NCBI GenBank assembly: GCA_016873495.1
Contig: VGXC01000026.1
Coordinates: 1-46,907 of the forward strand
Source: Nitrospira sp.
GTDB taxonomy: Bacteria; Nitrospirota; Nitrospiria; Nitrospirales; Nitrospiraceae
Reading direction: 5' to 3'
Length of the DNA stretch: 46,907 nt
Shown here: piece by piece, positions 37,694 to 46,907 of the stretch
How the letters are laid out: every line of letters starts with the position of its first letter
How positions within the stretch are numbered: position 1 is the first letter of the stretch
Made by a program: the position numbers and the translations under genes
The notes under the pieces: generated by a model
Seen by the model: the letters and a program-made list of their open reading frames with translations, nothing else
Told to the model about the DNA's origin: nothing
Database searches by the model: none

Positions 37694-37721
37694 TTGACTA
37701 GATTCTGGTAATGCGCATAAT
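37694..37721 (+). promoter_or_regulatory. Strong sigma-70-like promoter for the lipoprotein cluster
   Basis: TTGACT (37694-37699) and CATAAT (37716-37721) are separated by 16 bp; each hexamer matches five of six consensus bases. The first lipoprotein start is 59 bp downstream. It probably drives the whole plus-strand cluster. Confidence 0.7.
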
Positions 37722-37780
37722 GGCTCACAAGGTGGTCGAGAGGTCAGCGTTGTGAATGAAATTGTGTAGAGGAGGTGCCC

Positions 37781-38107
37781 ATGGCTCTGTCATCGAACAG
37801 CACAATGGTTCGCCCGGGAAAATCGCTCGGCCTCGTTCTCGCGCTCGGCCTCTGGACGGCCGCCGGCTGCGCGACCTCCGGCGACCTGGAGCAGATTAAG
37901 CAGGAGGCGCAACAGGGGGAAAGCAAGCTGCGGGCGGACCTGATGAAAGAGCAGACGCAGTTCTCCACCCTGGCGAAGGAGAACGAAGCGCTGCGCGCCG
38001 CCCATGCCAAGATTTCCCAGTCCGTCAAAGAGTATTTGAAAGCCGAAGAAGCGCGGCACGTGGACGCCCTCAATCAAGTCCGGTCCACGATGAAGAATCT
38101 GGAATAG
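37781..38107 (+). CDS. Coiled-coil lipoprotein (bare stalk)
   Basis: 108 residues. The signal peptide ends WTAAGC, then ATSGDLEQIKQEAQQGESKL begins a coiled coil that runs to the C-terminus (SVKEYLKAEEARHVDALNQVRSTMKNLE). It has no other domain, resembling a Braun-lipoprotein- or OmpA-stalk-like fibre. ATG 37781 has AGAGGAGG five bases upstream. Its GD(V/L)E-x2-(R/K)QE start is shared with the two lipoproteins that follow, so the three probably arose by duplication of one anchor module. Confidence 0.8.
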   Translation: MALSSNSTMVRPGKSLGLVLALGLWTAAGCATSGDLEQIKQEAQQGESKLRADLMKEQTQFSTLAKENEALRAAHAKISQSVKEYLKAEEARHVDALNQVRSTMKNLE

Positions 38108-38177
38108 CGGACGGAATCTCACAAGGAGCCGCCCATGATCGATGGACTCGTGCGCCATCAGCTTCGACCTCCGTCCC

Positions 38178-39434
38178 ATGAAGGCCCTCTCGTGCGCCAT
38201 CGCCCTGGTGCTCGCCGGTTGCGCCGGCTCCGGCGACGTGGAGCAAGTCCGGCAGGAGCGGGCCCAGGCCAAGGCCAAGATGAGCGGCGAACTCCAGCAG
38301 GAGCGCACGCTCGCCGCTTCCATGGAGAAAAAGAGTGAGGCCCAAAAGGCTGAGGCCGAGAAACTGGCCCAGGCCTTGGGAGGGAAGCAAGGGACGGTCG
38401 AGGGGAAGCCCCGGACGAAGACCTTGGGAGCAGGGGCAGGCGATGGCTCCGGCACCACGCTGAAGATCACCAACGGCACCGCCAATCCCGTGCCGGTCAT
38501 GATCACGTTGGGCGCCGGCTATGACATCAACAACATCAGTCAATTGCCGGCCTCATGGAACGTCGTTCAAGACCCCGTGGGCCTTCAGTATCTGTCGGGC
38601 CTCTTTATCCTGGCCGGCAACAGTTCGGTGTCGTACAATTCATATCCGAGCAGCTTCAGCGGCAACGTCGGCTTCGGGCCGACGTCCTGGGGGCGCGGCT
38701 GCGGCAATTCCGCCGCCGGCGCGTGCTACCCCAACTCCATCAACCTCGCCGAGTTTACGCTCAACTATTCAGGTGGGCAGGAGACGGTGGACATCAGCGA
38801 TGTGAACGGGGCCAACGCCTCGCTCACCATCAACTTTGCAAGCAGCAACCAGTGGACCGACAACTCCGGCAACAACAACGTGACCGCCATCGGGATCGCC
38901 CCGCCACTCTCCAATTTTGCCAACCAGGTAGGGGTCTACGGCTGGCAGGCAACGAATTGCACCTCCAGCGTCAATCCCCCTAACCCAGCGTCCGGCTGCC
39001 CCGCGCCGGTGAACGCCCCCTCGGCCTCGCAAACGCAGACCAACGCCCAGTGCAACATCCAGCGGGGATTGGGAGTATCCGGCGGCACGGTGGAGGTTGT
39101 CTTCGGCGGGTTTACGGACCAACCTTCGGCGCCGCAGCCTGGCTGCATGGCCGTGAACACCATCAGCCCGGCCAGCGGAACGCAGAGCGGCGGCCAGACC
39201 GTAACGATGACCGGCTGGGGCCTCTCGCAAGTGACCAGCGTGACGTTTCAGGGCGCGGCCGCGATGATCAGTTCACAGAGCGACACGCAGTTGGTGGTCA
39301 CGACGCCCCCATGCAACTTCACGTTTGCTCCTCAGCCCTGGCGTTCCAACGTCATGCTAAACGGGTCTTATATCGTGCCGAATAACGCAGCCGGGTGGGG
39401 TGCGAGCGCGGCCTACATTTACACGAGCCCCTGA
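38178..39434 (+). CDS. Lipoprotein with coiled-coil stalk, beta domain and IPT/TIG-like domain
   Basis: About 418 residues. Signal MKALSCAIALVLAGC, then a stalk (about 17-70) with QAKAKMSGELQQER and KSEAQKAEAEKLAQALGG. A Ser/Asn/Gly-rich beta domain (about 88-320) carries several cysteines and starts GTTLKITNGTANPVPVMITLG. An IPT/TIG-like Ig domain follows (about 328-385; NTISPASGTQSGGQTVTMTG). A longer start, ATG 38142, has a better-placed AAGGAG but a poor signal peptide. A 13-bp direct repeat (CTCGTGCGCCATC, 42 bp apart) links the two candidate starts, so a short in-frame duplication may have created the second. Confidence 0.75.
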   Translation: MKALSCAIALVLAGCAGSGDVEQVRQERAQAKAKMSGELQQERTLAASMEKKSEAQKAEAEKLAQALGGKQGTVEGKPRTKTLGAGAGDGSGTTLKITNGTANPVPVMITLGAGYDINNISQLPASWNVVQDPVGLQYLSGLFILAGNSSVSYNSYPSSFSGNVGFGPTSWGRGCGNSAAGACYPNSINLAEFTLNYSGGQETVDISDVNGANASLTINFASSNQWTDNSGNNNVTAIGIAPPLSNFANQVGVYGWQATNCTSSVNPPNPASGCPAPVNAPSASQTQTNAQCNIQRGLGVSGGTVEVVFGGFTDQPSAPQPGCMAVNTISPASGTQSGGQTVTMTGWGLSQVTSVTFQGAAAMISSQSDTQLVVTTPPCNFTFAPQPWRSNVMLNGSYIVPNNAAGWGASAAYIYTSP

Positions 39435-39570
39435 GAGACCTACAACCTCTCGAGCCCAAGACATCAGCTCCGGAGGTGAGCCATAGACCGCGAGCGCGGA
39501 GTAGTTGGTCAAGTCCGTCAGTCACCTGGTGGGCCACGACCATGGTGGCACAAGCATAAGGAGACCTTCT

Positions 39571-42500
39571 ATGCTTCCAATGAACGTGAATGCCTTTCGC
39601 AAGGCGATGCGTCGAGCCGGCAGTTTTCTGTTGACGATCAGTTTGATATGGGCCGGCTGCGCCAGCTCCGGCGACGTGGAGAAGGCCCGGCAAGAACAGG
39701 CCCAGGCCAAAGCCAAGATGAGCGCCGAGTTGCAGCAGGAGCGCCAGCTTGCCGCTTCGATGCACCAGGAAAGCGAGGCGCAAAAGGCCGAGGCGGAGAA
39801 ATTGGCCAAGGCCCTGGGCGGCACGGCACAGCCCAAGCCCCAGATGGCGGCTCCGCTCCGAGGTACAGCGTCAAGCATCACCCTGACCCAGGCCATGACG
39901 AACTACAACAATGGTCATTGCCAGAAAGTAATAAAAGCGAATCCGCCCGTCGTGCCTCAACAGGTCACTGCCTTGCATATTGCTAGCAGCACTGAATGTC
40001 CCTCCGTCACCATCAGCACCACCGATACGACGCCGTTTACCGCCGCTAGTCCTCTAATCCCAGTTGTCGTCGGCTCGGGCGGAACCCTGACATTGAATGA
40101 TCCGGGTACAGGTAACACCATGACCCTGTACGCCAGTTCCTTTCTCATTCAAAATACCGGCACGATGAGCGCGGGGTCGGCAACAGCTCCGGTCGCGGGG
40201 CAAATCACGATCGTCATGGCCGGCAATGCATCGGCGGCGCTTCCTCCCACAACGGGCGATCAAAATCAGAACATGCGTGACATCACCGTGATGGACGGAG
40301 GCACTCTGGCCCTGTACGGCGGCAAGGGCCTGTCGGCGGCGCCGGGGACCATGAACAACGACATTGTGAGCGGCACCCAGAGTTGGACCTACTTGGCCGT
40401 ACCGGCCGGACCGTCGTCGTTGTACGGTGAAAACGGGAGTATAGGAAACGTCAGCGCCCCCGTGCCCACCCAGTCGCCGGACGGTACCTTGTTGACCCTG
40501 GCGACCAATGTCCAGAGTGTCACTCCTCCCCAACAGGCCTGGCAAGTCGACGACTGGATCTCCGTGGCCACGACCAGTTTCTCGTCTCATCAGACGGAAA
40601 TCGTCCAGATTTGTAGTATTCAGACCGTTTCCAATCCAGAATCCGGCTCGATTACAAGCCTCTCGAACGGGAGCCCAATCGTCGTCACGAGCACATTCAC
40701 TCCAGCCAATGGAGCCCAAGTAACCATCACCGGAACAGGAACCTCCGCTGACAATCAAACCTATACGGTGACCACCTCGAGCTACAATACGTTTTCTCTG
40801 AATGGTTCGACGGGGTCCCAATTGTCAACATCTGGTCAATGGACCTTGGCAAAACAAGTGAGTCAGATCACCTTGTGTCAACCGCTCAAACATTACCACT
40901 ATGGCGGGTTCGCCCCTACGCCGGGGTTCTTTCCGGCCAGCACGACGCAGAAAGTCGTGTCAGGCGGAAATCCGATCAACGTCAGTCACCAGGCGAAGAG
41001 TTTCTACGACGATCACCACCGCAACTACGGCATCGACGAGCGGGCGGAAGTCGCGCTGCTGTCGCGCAACATCAAGCTCACCTCGGTGGCCGGTCAGACC
41101 GGCGACGGCAACAACTTTATCGGCGGGCACTTGGTCGCGATGGTGAGCCAGACCGGCTCTCCCCCCAGCCCAACTCTGACCTTGTCGGGAGTGGAGGTCG
41201 AAAAATTCGGCCAGGGGTTGGTGGGACGGTATCCGGTCCACTTGCACATGTTGCCCAGCGGGAGCGGCGTGTGGGTGCAGGACGTGAGCGTGCATCACAG
41301 TTACAACAAGTGTTATGTCGTCCACGGGACCGGCAACGCCAACTTCTATAACAATGTCTGCGTCCGCACGGTGGGCCAAGGGTTCTACCTGGAGGATGGC
41401 GACAATATCACCGGCAATCAGTTCATGCGGAACCACATTGCCGGCACCATGGCGGCCAATACACAGTATTCCTTCCCATTACCGCCTGGCAGCTTGTATT
41501 GGGACGGCGACAATTTGCAAAATTCTCATTTGTCGTGGGTGAACTGGTACAACGTTAACTCAATTCCAGACACCTCTCAATCCGGCTACAATGCGTCGTC
41601 TCCCGAAGGGCCTGATCTGTATCAGCCCAGCGGGTTTTGGATTACGAACCTCGGCAACACCTTCGTCAACAATTCGGTCGCCGGATGCCAGGCGAATGGG
41701 CGAGGGTACTGGTTGATCGCACAAGGGGCGAATGGTACCGCTGCCGCTTCACGCTTTACCTATCCCGAATTCACCGGCAACCGTGCCCACGGTTGTTATT
41801 ATGGCATCGATGTGACTGCCCAAGATGGCGTGTCGACGGACAATACCTACACTAATGATCCTCGGCCCACCCTGAGCACGACAGGGGTCATCACACCTCC
41901 GGTGTTTCTGCTCAATGACAACACCATTACCCGCTCACGCTTCCGCGGGTTCTGGTCGCGCAGCTTATTCACCGCGCTGCACAATAATCGGTTTGCCACG
42001 AACCCCTACGGCTTTTCGCTGCTGGGTGGTGGCGGACCGGAGGGTAACAACCCTGACTTTTGGGGCATGGCCCACGAAAACGTGATCGCCGGCATGACCA
42101 GGAACAATGTGGAGCGCTTTCCTGCCTGCACCCCTCCCATCACAAAGGCATGGAACAACACGGGAGGAGGCTCTCTGAACGTCGAGAGTCCCATCATCCC
42201 GCAACAGGGCGCCTCCATTCTCATCTCAGGAGTGCAAGGATATTCATCGGCCAACAGTGGCTGGACCGTCGGGACAACGACGGCCAACTCCTTTACGACC
42301 ACGGCCGCCGTTAACAAGGGATCTTCAACGAATAGCGGCGTGTGGCAATACACAAGCGGGTGGACATACGGCAAAGTTATGGTTCCTTGGCGATCAGAGT
42401 GTGCCGATGTGGCGTTAAGTTCCTCCGGGGCGAACTTGGGTTGGGGGAATCACCCTACCACCAGCTTCGGGTCTGTGATCAACGTTCAAGGCTATAGCTA

Positions 42501-45006
42501 CTATGACGGCCCCGCTCGCATCGAGCACAACCGCTTCGTCAATTTCCGCTTCGATCCGACCGGTATCTATCCAACCCATCCAGAAGCTCGCCTGTTGACC
42601 AGAACGGACATGCAAACCATCGTGGCATTCGACAGCCAGACCCAAGGTGGTTTTCCTGTCGGACCTCTGGGTCAACTCCAGGGGATCCCTCAACTGAGTG
42701 GAACCAACACCACGCTTTACAATGGTTATGTCGGAGACGCGGCCACAGGCTGGATTCAGTCCAATGCCCAGAGTGTTCCCCCCACGCAATACATCCGAGA
42801 CAGTATTTGGGAGAACGTGGATTTCAAGCACCAGGTCTACACGGAGGAAGTGAACATTGGCAAGTTGAATGACGGGGATAAAACGACCGTGATCCTCGAC
42901 AAGGACAGTCAACTGTCGGGCTTGCGCGTCGATGGAACCAGTCCGTATGCGAGCGACTTCGCGCCGGTTTCGCTGAACAACTTGGACTATTACGCCACCG
43001 ACTACACGGTGGATGAACCCCATTCCCGAGGTCCGAACAATTTTCGCTCGTCTTCATTGATGAGCCCGCACAAATACGCCACGCTGAACGTCGAGTCGGA
43101 TGTGCCGACCCCCAAATTCGTCAAAATCGTCCGCGATATGCCGGCCTATGGCGATACGGACTATCCAAGCCTATTTCTCTATGGGCGTGGCGGAACTTAC
43201 ATTTACGAACCATTCGTCATGGACCGGATGGGCTATACAGTCTATGCGGAAACCACAAGTTCGGCAGAACATGGAACGCAGACCTACCAAGGTTTCGAAA
43301 ATCATCTGCTCTTCACCTATACAGACCCGGCGGTGAAGACAGCCGGTGACTTTTTCGTGAACCGCATCGCGGTGTATCAGCCGCTCCAGACTCCGAATCA
43401 GTGGCAGAACATCAAGGTGTACCGAGTTCGCCGCCAGTGGGGACAATACTATTACAACACTCAGTCTTGGCCCCCAAATTACATTCCTCCTATTTCTTCA
43501 AATCCAAATGTTTACCCCGCTATTGCTCCAGCATGCGACTTGCCCTATTTCGACGCGGGGGCAAATTGGGCGGATTGCCTCAACCGCGCCACCAATAAGG
43601 CGCCCTACAATGCGCCGCCCTACTATACATCGGGCACGTCCCCTTACCAGTTCGGGATACAGTTACAGGCGGCGGCTGGAACAACCGCAGAGGAGCAGTG
43701 GACAAACTTTGAGGCGACCTACAAGACCCTGATGACCAGCAACCAGAAGCCGTCCGACATAGCAACTTTCATCGCCAATCAAACCTTCTTCTACGACACC
43801 ACGACCAGCATGCTGTACTTCTATATGATCGAAGATTCCCCGGTACAAAAGGGCTACGAGCCCTTCGGCACTTGCAGCGGCGACACAAATCAATATGCCG
43901 CTAATGTCCAGGCGGTGCAGACAAAGAAAAACTTCAGTGATCCGGGCAGCGTCCAACGTGCGTTGGATGCCTCTTGTTTGGTCAGTGGAGGTGCCCCCCA
44001 GCCGATCGATTTGTTCACATGTGGTGAGATCGGCTGTGCGGCTTACATGGTAGACTTTTCCGGACTCAGTGCGACGGGCACTTTTACCACGGCTCCTTCC
44101 ACAGGGCACCCCATTAAACGAACTGATTACGCAGGCTGGAACCAATATTCCTTTGTGTACGCCACGCCCTCGCAACAGCCTAATGGCTTGCCGGTTGCGG
44201 CCAATGCCGCTATCGGCAACACTGCACCGCCGCCGGATGGCGCGTCCTTAACCGGTGTCATGGCCTCCATTGACAACGTGTCTCCTTCCACCGGTTCCGG
44301 TGACCAACTCACCTATTGGTATATTCCGCACGGTAGCGGCACAAACCAAACAACAGACAACTTCCCCTATCACTGTGTCACGACGCCTCCCTGGTCCCCG
44401 GTGAACGCCAGGGTCCCCTATCTGTCTAGCGGCGGCTTTACCTATCCCTTGCATGATTCTGTCTGCGATTGGGTGATGCCGCATCCCATTGTAGGTGTCA
44501 CCGGCGGCGGCGTAATCACGAGCGTCAGCGCCAATACGCCAAATACGCTGATCCTCCCCCCGGTAGGGGCTCAAGTGGTTATCTCGGGAATAGCGGGCCT
44601 TGCCGGCCCCTACACCGTTTCAAATCCCACAGCTAACACGTTCTCAATTGGCACGACGTACAGCGGAACCTATACGGGCGGCGGCACGTGGCAGATACTC
44701 AACTCGATCGCCGGTGTCACCAACACTGCTTCATCCGTTACTCTTACCGTGCAAACCGGGGCCCCGGTCCCTGGCGCGGGAACTCTGGTGGCCCTTTCCG
44801 GAATAAGCGTATGCACGTTGCCAGGGACCCTCACCGTTGCAAGCTCAACTCCCAGCACCAAGACCACCGGAGGGACCTTCACAATTGACGGAACCATTAC
44901 AGGAAGCTGCACGGCAACGAATGCCACCTGGCAATGGCAACCGCCGCTGTCGCAGCATCAACAAAAGATCTCACAACCAAAACAGACGTCACGCAAGACA
45001 AAATAG
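39571..45006 (+). CDS. Giant stalked lipoprotein with G8 and CEMIP/TMEM2-like beta-helix domains
   Basis: 1811 residues. Signal with lipobox LIWAGC (Cys30) and a stalk (about 35-88) nearly identical to that of the previous protein. A G8-like domain follows (about 115-220; GTLTLNDPG, LYASSFLIQNTG, APVAGQITIVMAG). Then a right-handed beta-helix region with IDERAEVALLSRNIKLTS, GGHLVAM, VGRYPVHLHM (about 550-560), VQDVSVHHSYNKCYVVHGTG and QGFYLEDGDNITGN (about 605). These are the signature blocks of animal CEMIP/TMEM2 and PKHD1-type proteins. FCCH-like modules lie at about 368-427, 871-932, 1647-1710 and possibly 1711-1791. The C-terminus is basic. ATG 39571 has AAGGAG upstream. Surface-anchored; possible polysaccharide binding or cleavage is inferred from the animal relatives. 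Confidence 0.8.
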   Translation: MLPMNVNAFRKAMRRAGSFLLTISLIWAGCASSGDVEKARQEQAQAKAKMSAELQQERQLAASMHQESEAQKAEAEKLAKALGGTAQPKPQMAAPLRGTASSITLTQAMTNYNNGHCQKVIKANPPVVPQQVTALHIASSTECPSVTISTTDTTPFTAASPLIPVVVGSGGTLTLNDPGTGNTMTLYASSFLIQNTGTMSAGSATAPVAGQITIVMAGNASAALPPTTGDQNQNMRDITVMDGGTLALYGGKGLSAAPGTMNNDIVSGTQSWTYLAVPAGPSSLYGENGSIGNVSAPVPTQSPDGTLLTLATNVQSVTPPQQAWQVDDWISVATTSFSSHQTEIVQICSIQTVSNPESGSITSLSNGSPIVVTSTFTPANGAQVTITGTGTSADNQTYTVTTSSYNTFSLNGSTGSQLSTSGQWTLAKQVSQITLCQPLKHYHYGGFAPTPGFFPASTTQKVVSGGNPINVSHQAKSFYDDHHRNYGIDERAEVALLSRNIKLTSVAGQTGDGNNFIGGHLVAMVSQTGSPPSPTLTLSGVEVEKFGQGLVGRYPVHLHMLPSGSGVWVQDVSVHHSYNKCYVVHGTGNANFYNNVCVRTVGQGFYLEDGDNITGNQFMRNHIAGTMAANTQYSFPLPPGSLYWDGDNLQNSHLSWVNWYNVNSIPDTSQSGYNASSPEGPDLYQPSGFWITNLGNTFVNNSVAGCQANGRGYWLIAQGANGTAAASRFTYPEFTGNRAHGCYYGIDVTAQDGVSTDNTYTNDPRPTLSTTGVITPPVFLLNDNTITRSRFRGFWSRSLFTALHNNRFATNPYGFSLLGGGGPEGNNPDFWGMAHENVIAGMTRNNVERFPACTPPITKAWNNTGGGSLNVESPIIPQQGASILISGVQGYSSANSGWTVGTTTANSFTTTAAVNKGSSTNSGVWQYTSGWTYGKVMVPWRSECADVALSSSGANLGWGNHPTTSFGSVINVQGYSYYDGPARIEHNRFVNFRFDPTGIYPTHPEARLLTRTDMQTIVAFDSQTQGGFPVGPLGQLQGIPQLSGTNTTLYNGYVGDAATGWIQSNAQSVPPTQYIRDSIWENVDFKHQVYTEEVNIGKLNDGDKTTVILDKDSQLSGLRVDGTSPYASDFAPVSLNNLDYYATDYTVDEPHSRGPNNFRSSSLMSPHKYATLNVESDVPTPKFVKIVRDMPAYGDTDYPSLFLYGRGGTYIYEPFVMDRMGYTVYAETTSSAEHGTQTYQGFENHLLFTYTDPAVKTAGDFFVNRIAVYQPLQTPNQWQNIKVYRVRRQWGQYYYNTQSWPPNYIPPISSNPNVYPAIAPACDLPYFDAGANWADCLNRATNKAPYNAPPYYTSGTSPYQFGIQLQAAAGTTAEEQWTNFEATYKTLMTSNQKPSDIATFIANQTFFYDTTTSMLYFYMIEDSPVQKGYEPFGTCSGDTNQYAANVQAVQTKKNFSDPGSVQRALDASCLVSGGAPQPIDLFTCGEIGCAAYMVDFSGLSATGTFTTAPSTGHPIKRTDYAGWNQYSFVYATPSQQPNGLPVAANAAIGNTAPPPDGASLTGVMASIDNVSPSTGSGDQLTYWYIPHGSGTNQTTDNFPYHCVTTPPWSPVNARVPYLSSGGFTYPLHDSVCDWVMPHPIVGVTGGGVITSVSANTPNTLILPPVGAQVVISGIAGLAGPYTVSNPTANTFSIGTTYSGTYTGGGTWQILNSIAGVTNTASSVTLTVQTGAPVPGAGTLVALSGISVCTLPGTLTVASSTPSTKTTGGTFTIDGTITGSCTATNATWQWQPPLSQHQQKISQPKQTSRKTK
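40675..44945 (+). repeat. FCCH-like modules inside the giant lipoprotein gene
   Basis: Four segments of 60-80 codons (about 40675-40850, 42183-42365, 44511-44700 and a diverged 44705-44945) share a pattern: a G-x-Q/S-V/I-x-I-S/T-G core, Y/W-T-V, then N-T/S-F-S/T, ending G-x-W. This resembles the FCCH-type module found in phage tail and surface proteins. They are dispersed, so they look inserted rather than tandem. Confidence 0.5.
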
Positions 45007-45048
45007 GAACTGTCATGTACAGAGGAACGCAAAGGAGGACTTGCTTCA

Positions 45049-45705
45049 ATGACACGATCTAACTGGCAACCATGGTTCGCCGGCGTCGCGCTCTGTAGCG
45101 TCGCGCTCGGTCTCTGGGCTCCGACGGCCTCGGCCGAGTGGTTTGTCGGCGGCACCGTGGGCGCGACGATCCCCAATGGCCTGACCAATACCACCGGCAC
45201 GGGGCAGCAGGGCGGGTCCTTGAATACCTTTACTCAGCAGACGACGCTCTCCTACGGCGGCAAGGTCGGCTACTTCTTCGACAAGGCCAAGTGGCTGGGT
45301 CTCGACACGGACGTGTCCACCGCGACGCCGAACATCAATTCGAAACAGGCGTCGGTCCAGGGCGGCACCGGCTTGGGCGCGAACAACGGACAGAATTTGC
45401 GCGTGACGACCTGGTCCACGAATCTGGTGGCCCGCTATCCGGGCGAGCGGTTTCGCCCCTTTGTCGGCGGCGGGCTCGGCGTGTTCTTCGCCGAGGCCCC
45501 CGGCGCCTCCTCGTCGAACTGGAACCCCGGCGCCGTCGGCTTCGCGGGGCTCAACGTCCTGCTGACGCAGCACGTGTCCCTGTCGCTGGAATACCGGTAC
45601 CACTATGCGAACCTCCGCTTCGACAATGTGTTGGGACCGGGCCGGGGCTTTGACTCCACCTATACCGCGAACACGATGAATCTGGGGCTCAACTACCATT
45701 TCTGA
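45049..45705 (+). CDS. Small outer-membrane beta-barrel (OmpW/OmpA-like)
   Basis: 218 residues with a signal peptide ending ASAEW. Eight or so beta strands are visible: WFVGGTVGATIP, SYGGKVGYFF, LGLDTDVST, TTWSTNLVARYP, RPFVGGGLGVFFAEA, GAVGFAGLNVLL, LSLEYRYHYANLRFDN and TMNLGLNYHF. The final residue Phe and the HF ending are the outer-membrane insertion signal. AGGAGG lies eight bases before ATG 45049. It follows the giant lipoprotein in the same operon and may be its envelope partner. Confidence 0.83.
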   Translation: MTRSNWQPWFAGVALCSVALGLWAPTASAEWFVGGTVGATIPNGLTNTTGTGQQGGSLNTFTQQTTLSYGGKVGYFFDKAKWLGLDTDVSTATPNINSKQASVQGGTGLGANNGQNLRVTTWSTNLVARYPGERFRPFVGGGLGVFFAEAPGASSSNWNPGAVGFAGLNVLLTQHVSLSLEYRYHYANLRFDNVLGPGRGFDSTYTANTMNLGLNYHF

Positions 45706-45732
45706 AAAATTTTGCAGGCAAGGGGGAACATC

Positions 45733-46209
45733 ATGACGACATCGAAGCTCTTTCAATTGATGCGACACAAGGCGCCCGCGCCAGCTTCCATCATGGTCCT
45801 GTTCTTGTTGCTGCAGGGCTGCGGCAGCAGCGATCAAATCCAGATCAAGGCAGGGTACTGTCCCTTCCCGCCCAACGTGGCGGATGAGGACAAGAACACC
45901 ATGAAGCAGTTCAGCGCCAGTGTCAGCGGCATCGTCACGTCGGTGGCCGGCGGCAGCGCCTCCGGAGAGATTCAGGGCGCGTTGGAAAAGTACTATCCCG
46001 CCGCGCACGACGTGAACCGGATCTACGCGTTGAGCTATGCCGCCTGCGTGGCCTGCCGTCTGGACCCGACCGACGTGAAGGGCTGCGCCCAGCGGTTCAG
46101 CGACATCGTCAATGCGAACCACGCCAAGCGCGACGAGAGCGCGCGGACGGCGGAGGCCTATCACAAGCAAATGCTCGATCCGCTCAAGGGCACGTCAGGG
46201 GGAAAGTAA
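45733..46209 (+). CDS. Cysteine-containing lipoprotein, unknown function
   Basis: 158 residues with a lipobox LLQGC (Cys30). The mature part is helical, with cysteines at YCPFPP, ACVACRLD and KGCAQRF, and an amphipathic helix SVSGIVTSVAGGSASGEIQGALEKYY. These could form disulfides or bind a metal, but no known motif was recognised. ATG 45733 follows AAGGGGGA. It is 27 bp after the barrel gene and is the fourth lipoprotein of this cluster; its stalk is not of the shared coiled-coil type. Confidence 0.7.
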   Translation: MTTSKLFQLMRHKAPAPASIMVLFLLLQGCGSSDQIQIKAGYCPFPPNVADEDKNTMKQFSASVSGIVTSVAGGSASGEIQGALEKYYPAAHDVNRIYALSYAACVACRLDPTDVKGCAQRFSDIVNANHAKRDESARTAEAYHKQMLDPLKGTSGGK

Positions 46210-46217
46210 CCGATGAG

Positions 46218-46239
46218 CGGGGGCGTCTGTCCTCCCCCG
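46218..46239 (+). terminator. Weak hairpin between the last lipoprotein and the final gene
   Basis: CGGGGG (46218-46223) pairs with CCCCCG (46234-46239) over 10 nt, eight bases before the next ATG. It has no T-run; it may be a leader structure rather than a terminator. Confidence 0.25.
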
Positions 46240-46246
46240 TACCCGT

Positions 46247-46907
46247 ATGACTCGCCGCAGCCGTTCATGGGTCTCGATCGTCGTCATGGCCTGCTGGGGA
46301 ATTTGGGGTGAGGCCCCCCCTGTTCTGGCGGAGACCGCCAGCATGCAGGTCAACGGCCAGTGGGTCAACGCCGGCGCCGGCGTGCGCACCGGCGTCCTCG
46401 GCAGTTTTTACACCTATGCCCTGCCCACGGAAAGCATCGAGCAAGGCCATTGGTACATGAAGGTGGTGCCGGGCTACTTCCGGGACTCGGGCAGCAACGA
46501 CGGGAAAACCCTGGCCCAGTTCGACTCCCAAGGCGCCGGCATCTCCATTCGGTTTCTACACGCCCTCTCAGACCATTGGGGCATCGGCTTTCAGGGCGTC
46601 TATGCCCGCAGCGCGACCGGCAGCGCCCAAACCGTCAGTTTCGGGGCGCAAGGCATCGACAGCCAGGGGAACAGCCGGCTCGCCCTCCCCTTGCAGTTGT
46701 CCGCGTATAGCGGCATGGCGGAAGTGGTCTACGATCCCTTCACCGGCCAGGGATTTCGGATGCCCATCTTGTTCGGCCTTACGTTCAGCACCATTGATGC
46801 CACGTCCGAGGGCACCTTTCAGTTCCAAGGCAACTCGTTCTACGCCAAGAACAAAACCGTCCCGACGGTCTCGCCGGGCGTGGCCCTTGGAATTGCCCCG
46901 CAGCACA
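46247..46907 (+). CDS. Exported beta-rich, outer-membrane-type protein, C-terminus beyond the window
   Basis: 220 codons are visible with no stop before the window ends. The start MTRRSRSWVSIVVMACWGIW is a twin-Arg-like or Sec signal peptide ending near VLAET. The mature part is beta-rich, with GVRTGVLGSFYTYALPTES, WYMKVVPGYFRDSG, AGISIRFLHALSDHWGIGFQGVYARSATG and FRMPILFGLTFSTIDATSEGTF, alternating as in outer-membrane barrels. ATG 46247 is used because it starts the signal. It ends the plus-strand envelope cluster in this window. Confidence 0.68.
   Translation, partial: MTRRSRSWVSIVVMACWGIWGEAPPVLAETASMQVNGQWVNAGAGVRTGVLGSFYTYALPTESIEQGHWYMKVVPGYFRDSGSNDGKTLAQFDSQGAGISIRFLHALSDHWGIGFQGVYARSATGSAQTVSFGAQGIDSQGNSRLALPLQLSAYSGMAEVVYDPFTGQGFRMPILFGLTFSTIDATSEGTFQFQGNSFYAKNKTVPTVSPGVALGIAPQH

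Follow-up and report, generated by a model that had tools for sequence, protein, structure and literature searches.

A shared lipoprotein stalk with differing heads in relatives of Nitrospira, a candidate tether for extracellular enzymes

Why should neighboring lipoproteins share one coiled-coil anchor and carry unrelated cargo on it? The question is raised by a 46,907-nucleotide stretch of DNA from Nitrospira sp. (contig VGXC01000026.1 of assembly GCA_016873495.1), referred to here as the window, which is contig C26 of a 3.19 Mb genome (G000). An earlier reading made from the letters without database searches (the sequence-only reading) had noticed three consecutive lipoproteins with a common pattern after the acylated Cys, and this is borne out. 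P1 (37781–38107), P2 (38178–39434, with an open reading frame that possibly starts at 38142) and P3 (39571–45006) all lie on the + strand, and each has a signal peptide, a lipobox Cys opening the pattern CA-x-SGD-[VL]-E (CA[TGS]SGD[VL]E in these three), and a coil of about 55 residues; the stalks occupy 37868–38032, 38220–38384 and 39658–39822, respectively. The cargo differs, as had also been claimed: P1 (mature length 79 residues) has none and ends 24 residues beyond its coil, P2 carries an orphan Cys-containing beta head plus an IPT/TIG domain, and the cargo of P3 spans 1.7 kilo-residues, with a G8 domain, a CEMIP/TMEM2-type beta-helix (2.6e-29) and small inserted beta modules. Bare and cargo-bearing stalks look like a reusable “coat-hook” that would tether polymer-degrading enzymes at the outer membrane. 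We put the probability at roughly 60% that the stalk is a modular outer-membrane lipoprotein tether that docks extracellular hydrolases and has P1 as its free partner coil.

The similarity of the stalks exceeds chance. A profile built from the nine stalks that bear cargo in genera g1 and g12, with P1 excluded, scored P1 at an expectation value (E) of 8.7e-11, compared to 0.046 for the best of 4000 composition-shuffled coils. One could suppose instead that a low-complexity charged coil arose repeatedly and matches by composition, as the Ala/Glu/Lys/Gln-rich sequence and its weak matches to many coiled coils might suggest. However, the out-of-sample scores lie far above the shuffles, the CA-x-SGD and EKL motifs are position-specific, and the range is narrow; we consider this origin highly improbable, and for the members in g1, g12 and g8 it is refuted by profile scores and distribution. 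Matches of P1 to PHROG families (spanin-like, tape measure) were judged to be generic coiled-coil matches. Heptad periodicity is present in the stalks, but modest. The description of the P2 and P3 stalks as almost identical was overstated, since they share 81% identity in both protein and DNA, with a synonymous divergence (dS) of ~0.84. Both are 32–36% identical to the P1 stalk. Gene conversion between the P2 and P3 stalks is unsupported, given this dS and the fact that the P2 stalk is nearer to the P3 stalk of genome G003 (dS 0.42). Judged by substitution patterns, the stalk is kept by purifying selection, and P1 most strictly: the ratio of nonsynonymous to synonymous divergence (dN/dS) is ~0.03–0.2 for P1 across genera and clearly <1 for the other stalks, with stalk dN well below dS.

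Profile searches took in 61 relatives, 396 phylum genomes and 236 order genomes. Convincing stalks were found only in g1 (three genomes), g12 (G014) and g8 (G028 and G415), along with a fragment in g20 (G022), and none of the other phylum or order genomes searched gave a convincing match. The family is intact in three genera of one Nitrospirota family and fragmentary in a fourth. Four copies each are present in G000 and G003, three in G002 (of which one is truncated where its contig stops), three in G014, and a pair in each of G028 and G415. A scan of 84,980 species for a pattern of two short motifs matched Nitrospirota bacterium REEB37 alone. The sequence-only reading had held that a common coil spread across unrelated lipoproteins would speak against it; both searches show a narrow range instead. 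Two longer coiled-coil lipoproteins of the form CATKGDLE...FLKTEEA... (L130 2064–2687, − strand; L131 1925–2443, + strand; in G016 and G014) resemble P1 at both ends and fall near the noise limit by profile; they are possible older relatives of the family.

The recognizable heads point to enzymes. A fourth stalk protein of the window's own genome, on contig C64 (L004 144–2702), carries a GH141-type beta-helix head that matches BT_1002 (5mqp) at E 1.3e-55, and by profile at 7e-110 (C64/C23). Residues D523 and D564 of BT_1002 have been reported as essential (PMC12786026). Two Asp that are invariant in all five sequences align with this pair, whose spacing is 41 residues in the BT_1002 chain (in the numbering of that chain, both Asp are shifted by 5). 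P3 exceeds the Pfam cut-offs for the G8 domain (PF10162, 42.8 bits vs. 22.9) and the CEMIP beta-helix (PF24606, 102.9 vs. 27.3); its G8 domain lies at 40006–40323 (E 5.7e-11), its beta-helix occupies two stretches in 41122–41799, and P3 matches the TMEM2 structure 8c6i (E 3.3e-17). In g8, the stalk bears an AppA-type head that is a histidine acid phosphatase by PF00328 (1.5e-22) and by comparison to 4aru (1.8e-58), with the motifs RHGVRSP or RHGLRSP and GHDTN, in agreement with the RHGxRxP and HD signatures expected of such enzymes. By sequence, catalytic residues are conserved in two of the head families. In neighboring genera, relatives of the GH141 head (G167, G023 and G160) and CEMIP-type proteins (G060 and G044) begin with ordinary N-termini and carry no lipobox stalk. 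Secreted freely in this neighborhood, both head families are attached to the stalk in g1.

Gene order and head identity were compared across relatives, and the expected co-occurrence of the cluster genes was confirmed by synteny. P1 orthologs are present in G002, G003 and G014 as well as in the two g8 genomes, and the P1-cargo order recurs in G000, G002, G003 and G014, with P1-P2-P3 as in the window in G003 and G014, and P3 directly after P1 in G002. P1 adjoins cargo genes in six of the six genomes with a readable P1 neighborhood. The G002 data suggest a tandem duplication of the cassette: one contig has P1 at its end, and another, not joined to it, starts this region with the last part (3′) of the downstream lipoprotein gene, after which come a different P1, P3, a barrel and a lipoprotein. 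The stretches concerned are L042 1–6284 and L043 15346–15444, and the two P1 genes share 89% DNA identity over 99 bases.

Cargo at position 2 has been exchanged, as the P2 head of the window has no similarity to that of G003 and G014. The P2 head of G003 and G014 has an FN3 domain and is otherwise an orphan; that of the window is absent from the other genomes among 246 searched, save for a weak TIG match. The TIG domain of the window P2 lies at 39153–39317 (PF01833, E 3.6e-11, 43.3 bits vs. a cut-off of 20.9). Two candidate identities were rejected. A GH64 beta-1,3-glucanase, suggested by motifs, was considered for the G003/G014 head and found no match to PF16483, PDB profiles or plasmids; a thaumatin-like identity for the window head scored 17.0 bits with PF00314 vs. 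27.4 required for the whole protein, gave nothing for the isolated head, and had no homologs. Viral contigs contained no relative of the P2′ head. Comparison of P3 (39571–45006) to its orthologs in L040, L042 and L044 shows 63–77% identity. Beta modules of two types, E1_FCCH-like and GSGY-type, each tens of residues long, sit at differing positions in the beta-helix loops, and the G014 protein has almost none; small modules appear to have been gained recently within this one protein. The claim that one anchor carries unrelated heads is thereby supported and also widened, to at least five kinds of head over three genera.

Whether P1 pairs with the cargo stalks is addressed by the g8 genomes. 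Both G028 and G415 encode a P1 that has the C-terminal half specific to P1 proteins (LKDYLKAE-AR, conserved as VKEYLKAEEAR... in the window), and the phosphatase-bearing stalk lipoprotein follows it directly. These P1 proteins score 44–49 bits with the P1 profile vs. 13–15 with the stalk profile, and their cargo-bearing partners score 23–27 bits with the stalk profile vs. ~16 with that of P1. A tree of shared columns places all P1s apart from all cargo stalks (support 76–86%), which together with the profile scores indicates that bare and cargo-bearing stalks probably diverged before the genera did. The g8 P1 and its partner stalk each differ in length from their g1 and g12 counterparts by the same 18 residues, located between the N-terminal and EKES/AKEN landmarks, the g8 stalk being the longer. 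An equal length change in two paralogs is expected if P1 and stalk pair in register, and this co-variation suggests such pairing, as a single contrast and not as proof. A stricter version, in which the coiled coil of P1 and cargo stalks at the outer membrane is obligately heteromeric, any stalk-fused enzyme docks on P1, and coil length and register co-evolve, is held only tentatively and we would not call it probable.

Cargo exchange could be explained without any pairing if the stalk were a lineage-specific leader, that is, a duplicated signal peptide plus a spacer that keeps heads off the membrane, and P1 did not act as a partner. The modest heptad signal would fit this, as would a GH141 gene that stands alone in both G003 and G000. 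It is harder to reconcile with a cargo-less P1 that is the most conserved member (by the dN/dS given above), that keeps its place beside cargo genes in every readable neighborhood, and that shares the 18-residue difference with its g8 partner. We regard the leader as a rather unlikely explanation.

In the tether reading, the outer-membrane or surface position, coil pairing, enzyme activity and substrates are inferred; it runs as follows. The stalk, consisting of the lipobox Cys and the ~55-residue coiled coil, is fused to differing secreted heads, and its lipid would hold them at the outer membrane, where they would act on extracellular polymers or organic compounds. P1, encoded directly upstream of the cargo genes, would most likely join the cargo stalks in a mixed coiled coil, serving either as a docking partner common to them or as a spacer. 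New cargo would arise when a head that is freely secreted in related genera becomes fused to a copy of the stalk.

Several observations weigh against this reading. In E. coli, the residue at position +2 after the Cys bears on outer-membrane sorting, and by that rule the Ala found here only hints at an outer-membrane destination. AlphaFold predictions (n = 2) have a predicted local distance difference test score (pLDDT) of ~31. The 18-residue co-variation amounts to one evolutionary difference in two related genomes, and the solitary GH141 stalk genes of G000 and G003 have no adjoining P1. With no enzyme family recognized in the P2 heads, enzymatic cargo is recognized only in part. For human TMEM2, a relative of P3 with a solved crystal structure, the paper on that structure reports that hyaluronidase activity was not detected and that no active site could be assigned (PMC10206443), so that care is needed regarding the activity of CEMIP-type proteins. 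Finally, the C64 gene has one in-frame TAG (L004 660–662), its G003 ortholog being open, and the GH141 gene of G022 is a split copy that has lost part of the stalk and head. The GH141 stalk gene seems to be decaying in two of three lineages, or else the TAG in the window's own genome is an assembly error.

Three further genes follow P3 on the + strand of the window: a small outer-membrane beta-barrel (45049–45705; OMP_b-brl, E 1e-12), a lipoprotein without a known family (45712–46209), and a predicted barrel or secreted protein, also without a known family, that runs off the contig (46247–46907). Their membership in the system is uncertain. The sequence-only reading had two barrels and a lipoprotein following behind one strong promoter. 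The gene order is indeed seen in the window and throughout g1 (P3-barrel-lipoprotein-barrel, with an OMP_b-brl barrel after P3 in G002 and G003), but the strength of the promoter is not borne out. The sigma-70-like match TTGACT-16-CATAAT (37694–37721, + strand) has 10/12 consensus positions and is at chance level, with one site found compared to 3.0 on average in shuffled sequence. The trio is also present in G010. The second predicted barrel, of ~313 residues, is conserved in G002, G003, G010 and G022 and intact in G003; in G014 it is a remnant with an in-frame TAG. Homologs of the 45712 lipoprotein stand without stalk genes in genus g32 of family f3. The trio is partly found apart from stalk genes, which makes its share in the system uncertain.

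These genes bear on the suggestion of a surface-fiber or matrix system, in which P1–P3 and the downstream barrels would build surface fibers or a structural envelope layer and the heads would be adhesive and non-catalytic. The ordered barrel, lipoprotein and second barrel would suit such an assembly, as would the length of P3, its beta-helix with small inserted modules, and the TIG or FN3 domains of the P2 heads. On the other hand, the trio homologs are partly separate from stalk genes, a phosphatase and a solitary GH141 protein are ill-suited to a fiber, and GH141 and histidine acid phosphatases are hydrolase families whose catalytic residues are conserved here. With the recognizable heads all from hydrolase or glycan-active families (GH141, CEMIP/TMEM2, AppA-type phosphatase), the fiber suggestion is unsupported and in our estimate quite unlikely; such heads argue for tethered extracellular enzymes rather than a fiber.

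Tethering by a lipidated coil invites comparison to Lpp/OprI (NF040598), likewise short outer-membrane-type lipoproteins with a coiled coil directly behind the acylated Cys. Most stalks score only 15–25 bits vs. the curated NF040598 cut-off of 43 bits, and P1 lacks the peptidoglycan-linking C-terminal Lys, ending instead in NLE (G000, G003, G014), GLE (G002), TLQ (G028) or VLP (G415). By these two features the stalk family falls outside Lpp/OprI, and its paralogs bear cargo, which native Lpp does not. In other phyla, anchor modules reused on many secreted enzymes include SLH domains, LPXTG signals, type IX secretion C-terminal domains and dockerins. The likeness to these is functional, with no sequence relation expected; in the present case, from Nitrospirota, the module differs in that it is a lipidated coiled coil at the N-terminus and that a bare paralog is encoded beside the cargo. 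Among the heads, P3 shares with CEMIP/TMEM2 (8c6i) the G8 domain and the characteristic beta-helix with RYPVH and HHS motifs, but is anchored as a lipoprotein where the latter has a transmembrane segment, and contains inserted small beta modules, and the activity of the human protein is disputed. Similarly, the GH141 head shares the beta-helix enzyme family and the catalytic Asp pair with BT_1002 (5mqp), and differs in belonging to a stalk-anchored lipoprotein, whereas its stalkless relatives in neighboring genera have ordinary N-termini.

In the open-licence literature searched, we found no account of exchangeable enzyme heads on a lipidated coiled coil that has a bare partner next to it, and no reusable secreted-enzyme anchor reported for Nitrospirota. 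If the tether reading is true, it would show how slow-growing Nitrospira-like bacteria keep polymer- and phosphate-releasing enzymes on the cell. The stalk would then also be an easy marker by which to find more surface enzymes among uncultured members, and a natural tag for N-terminal display with a partner requirement that is directly testable.

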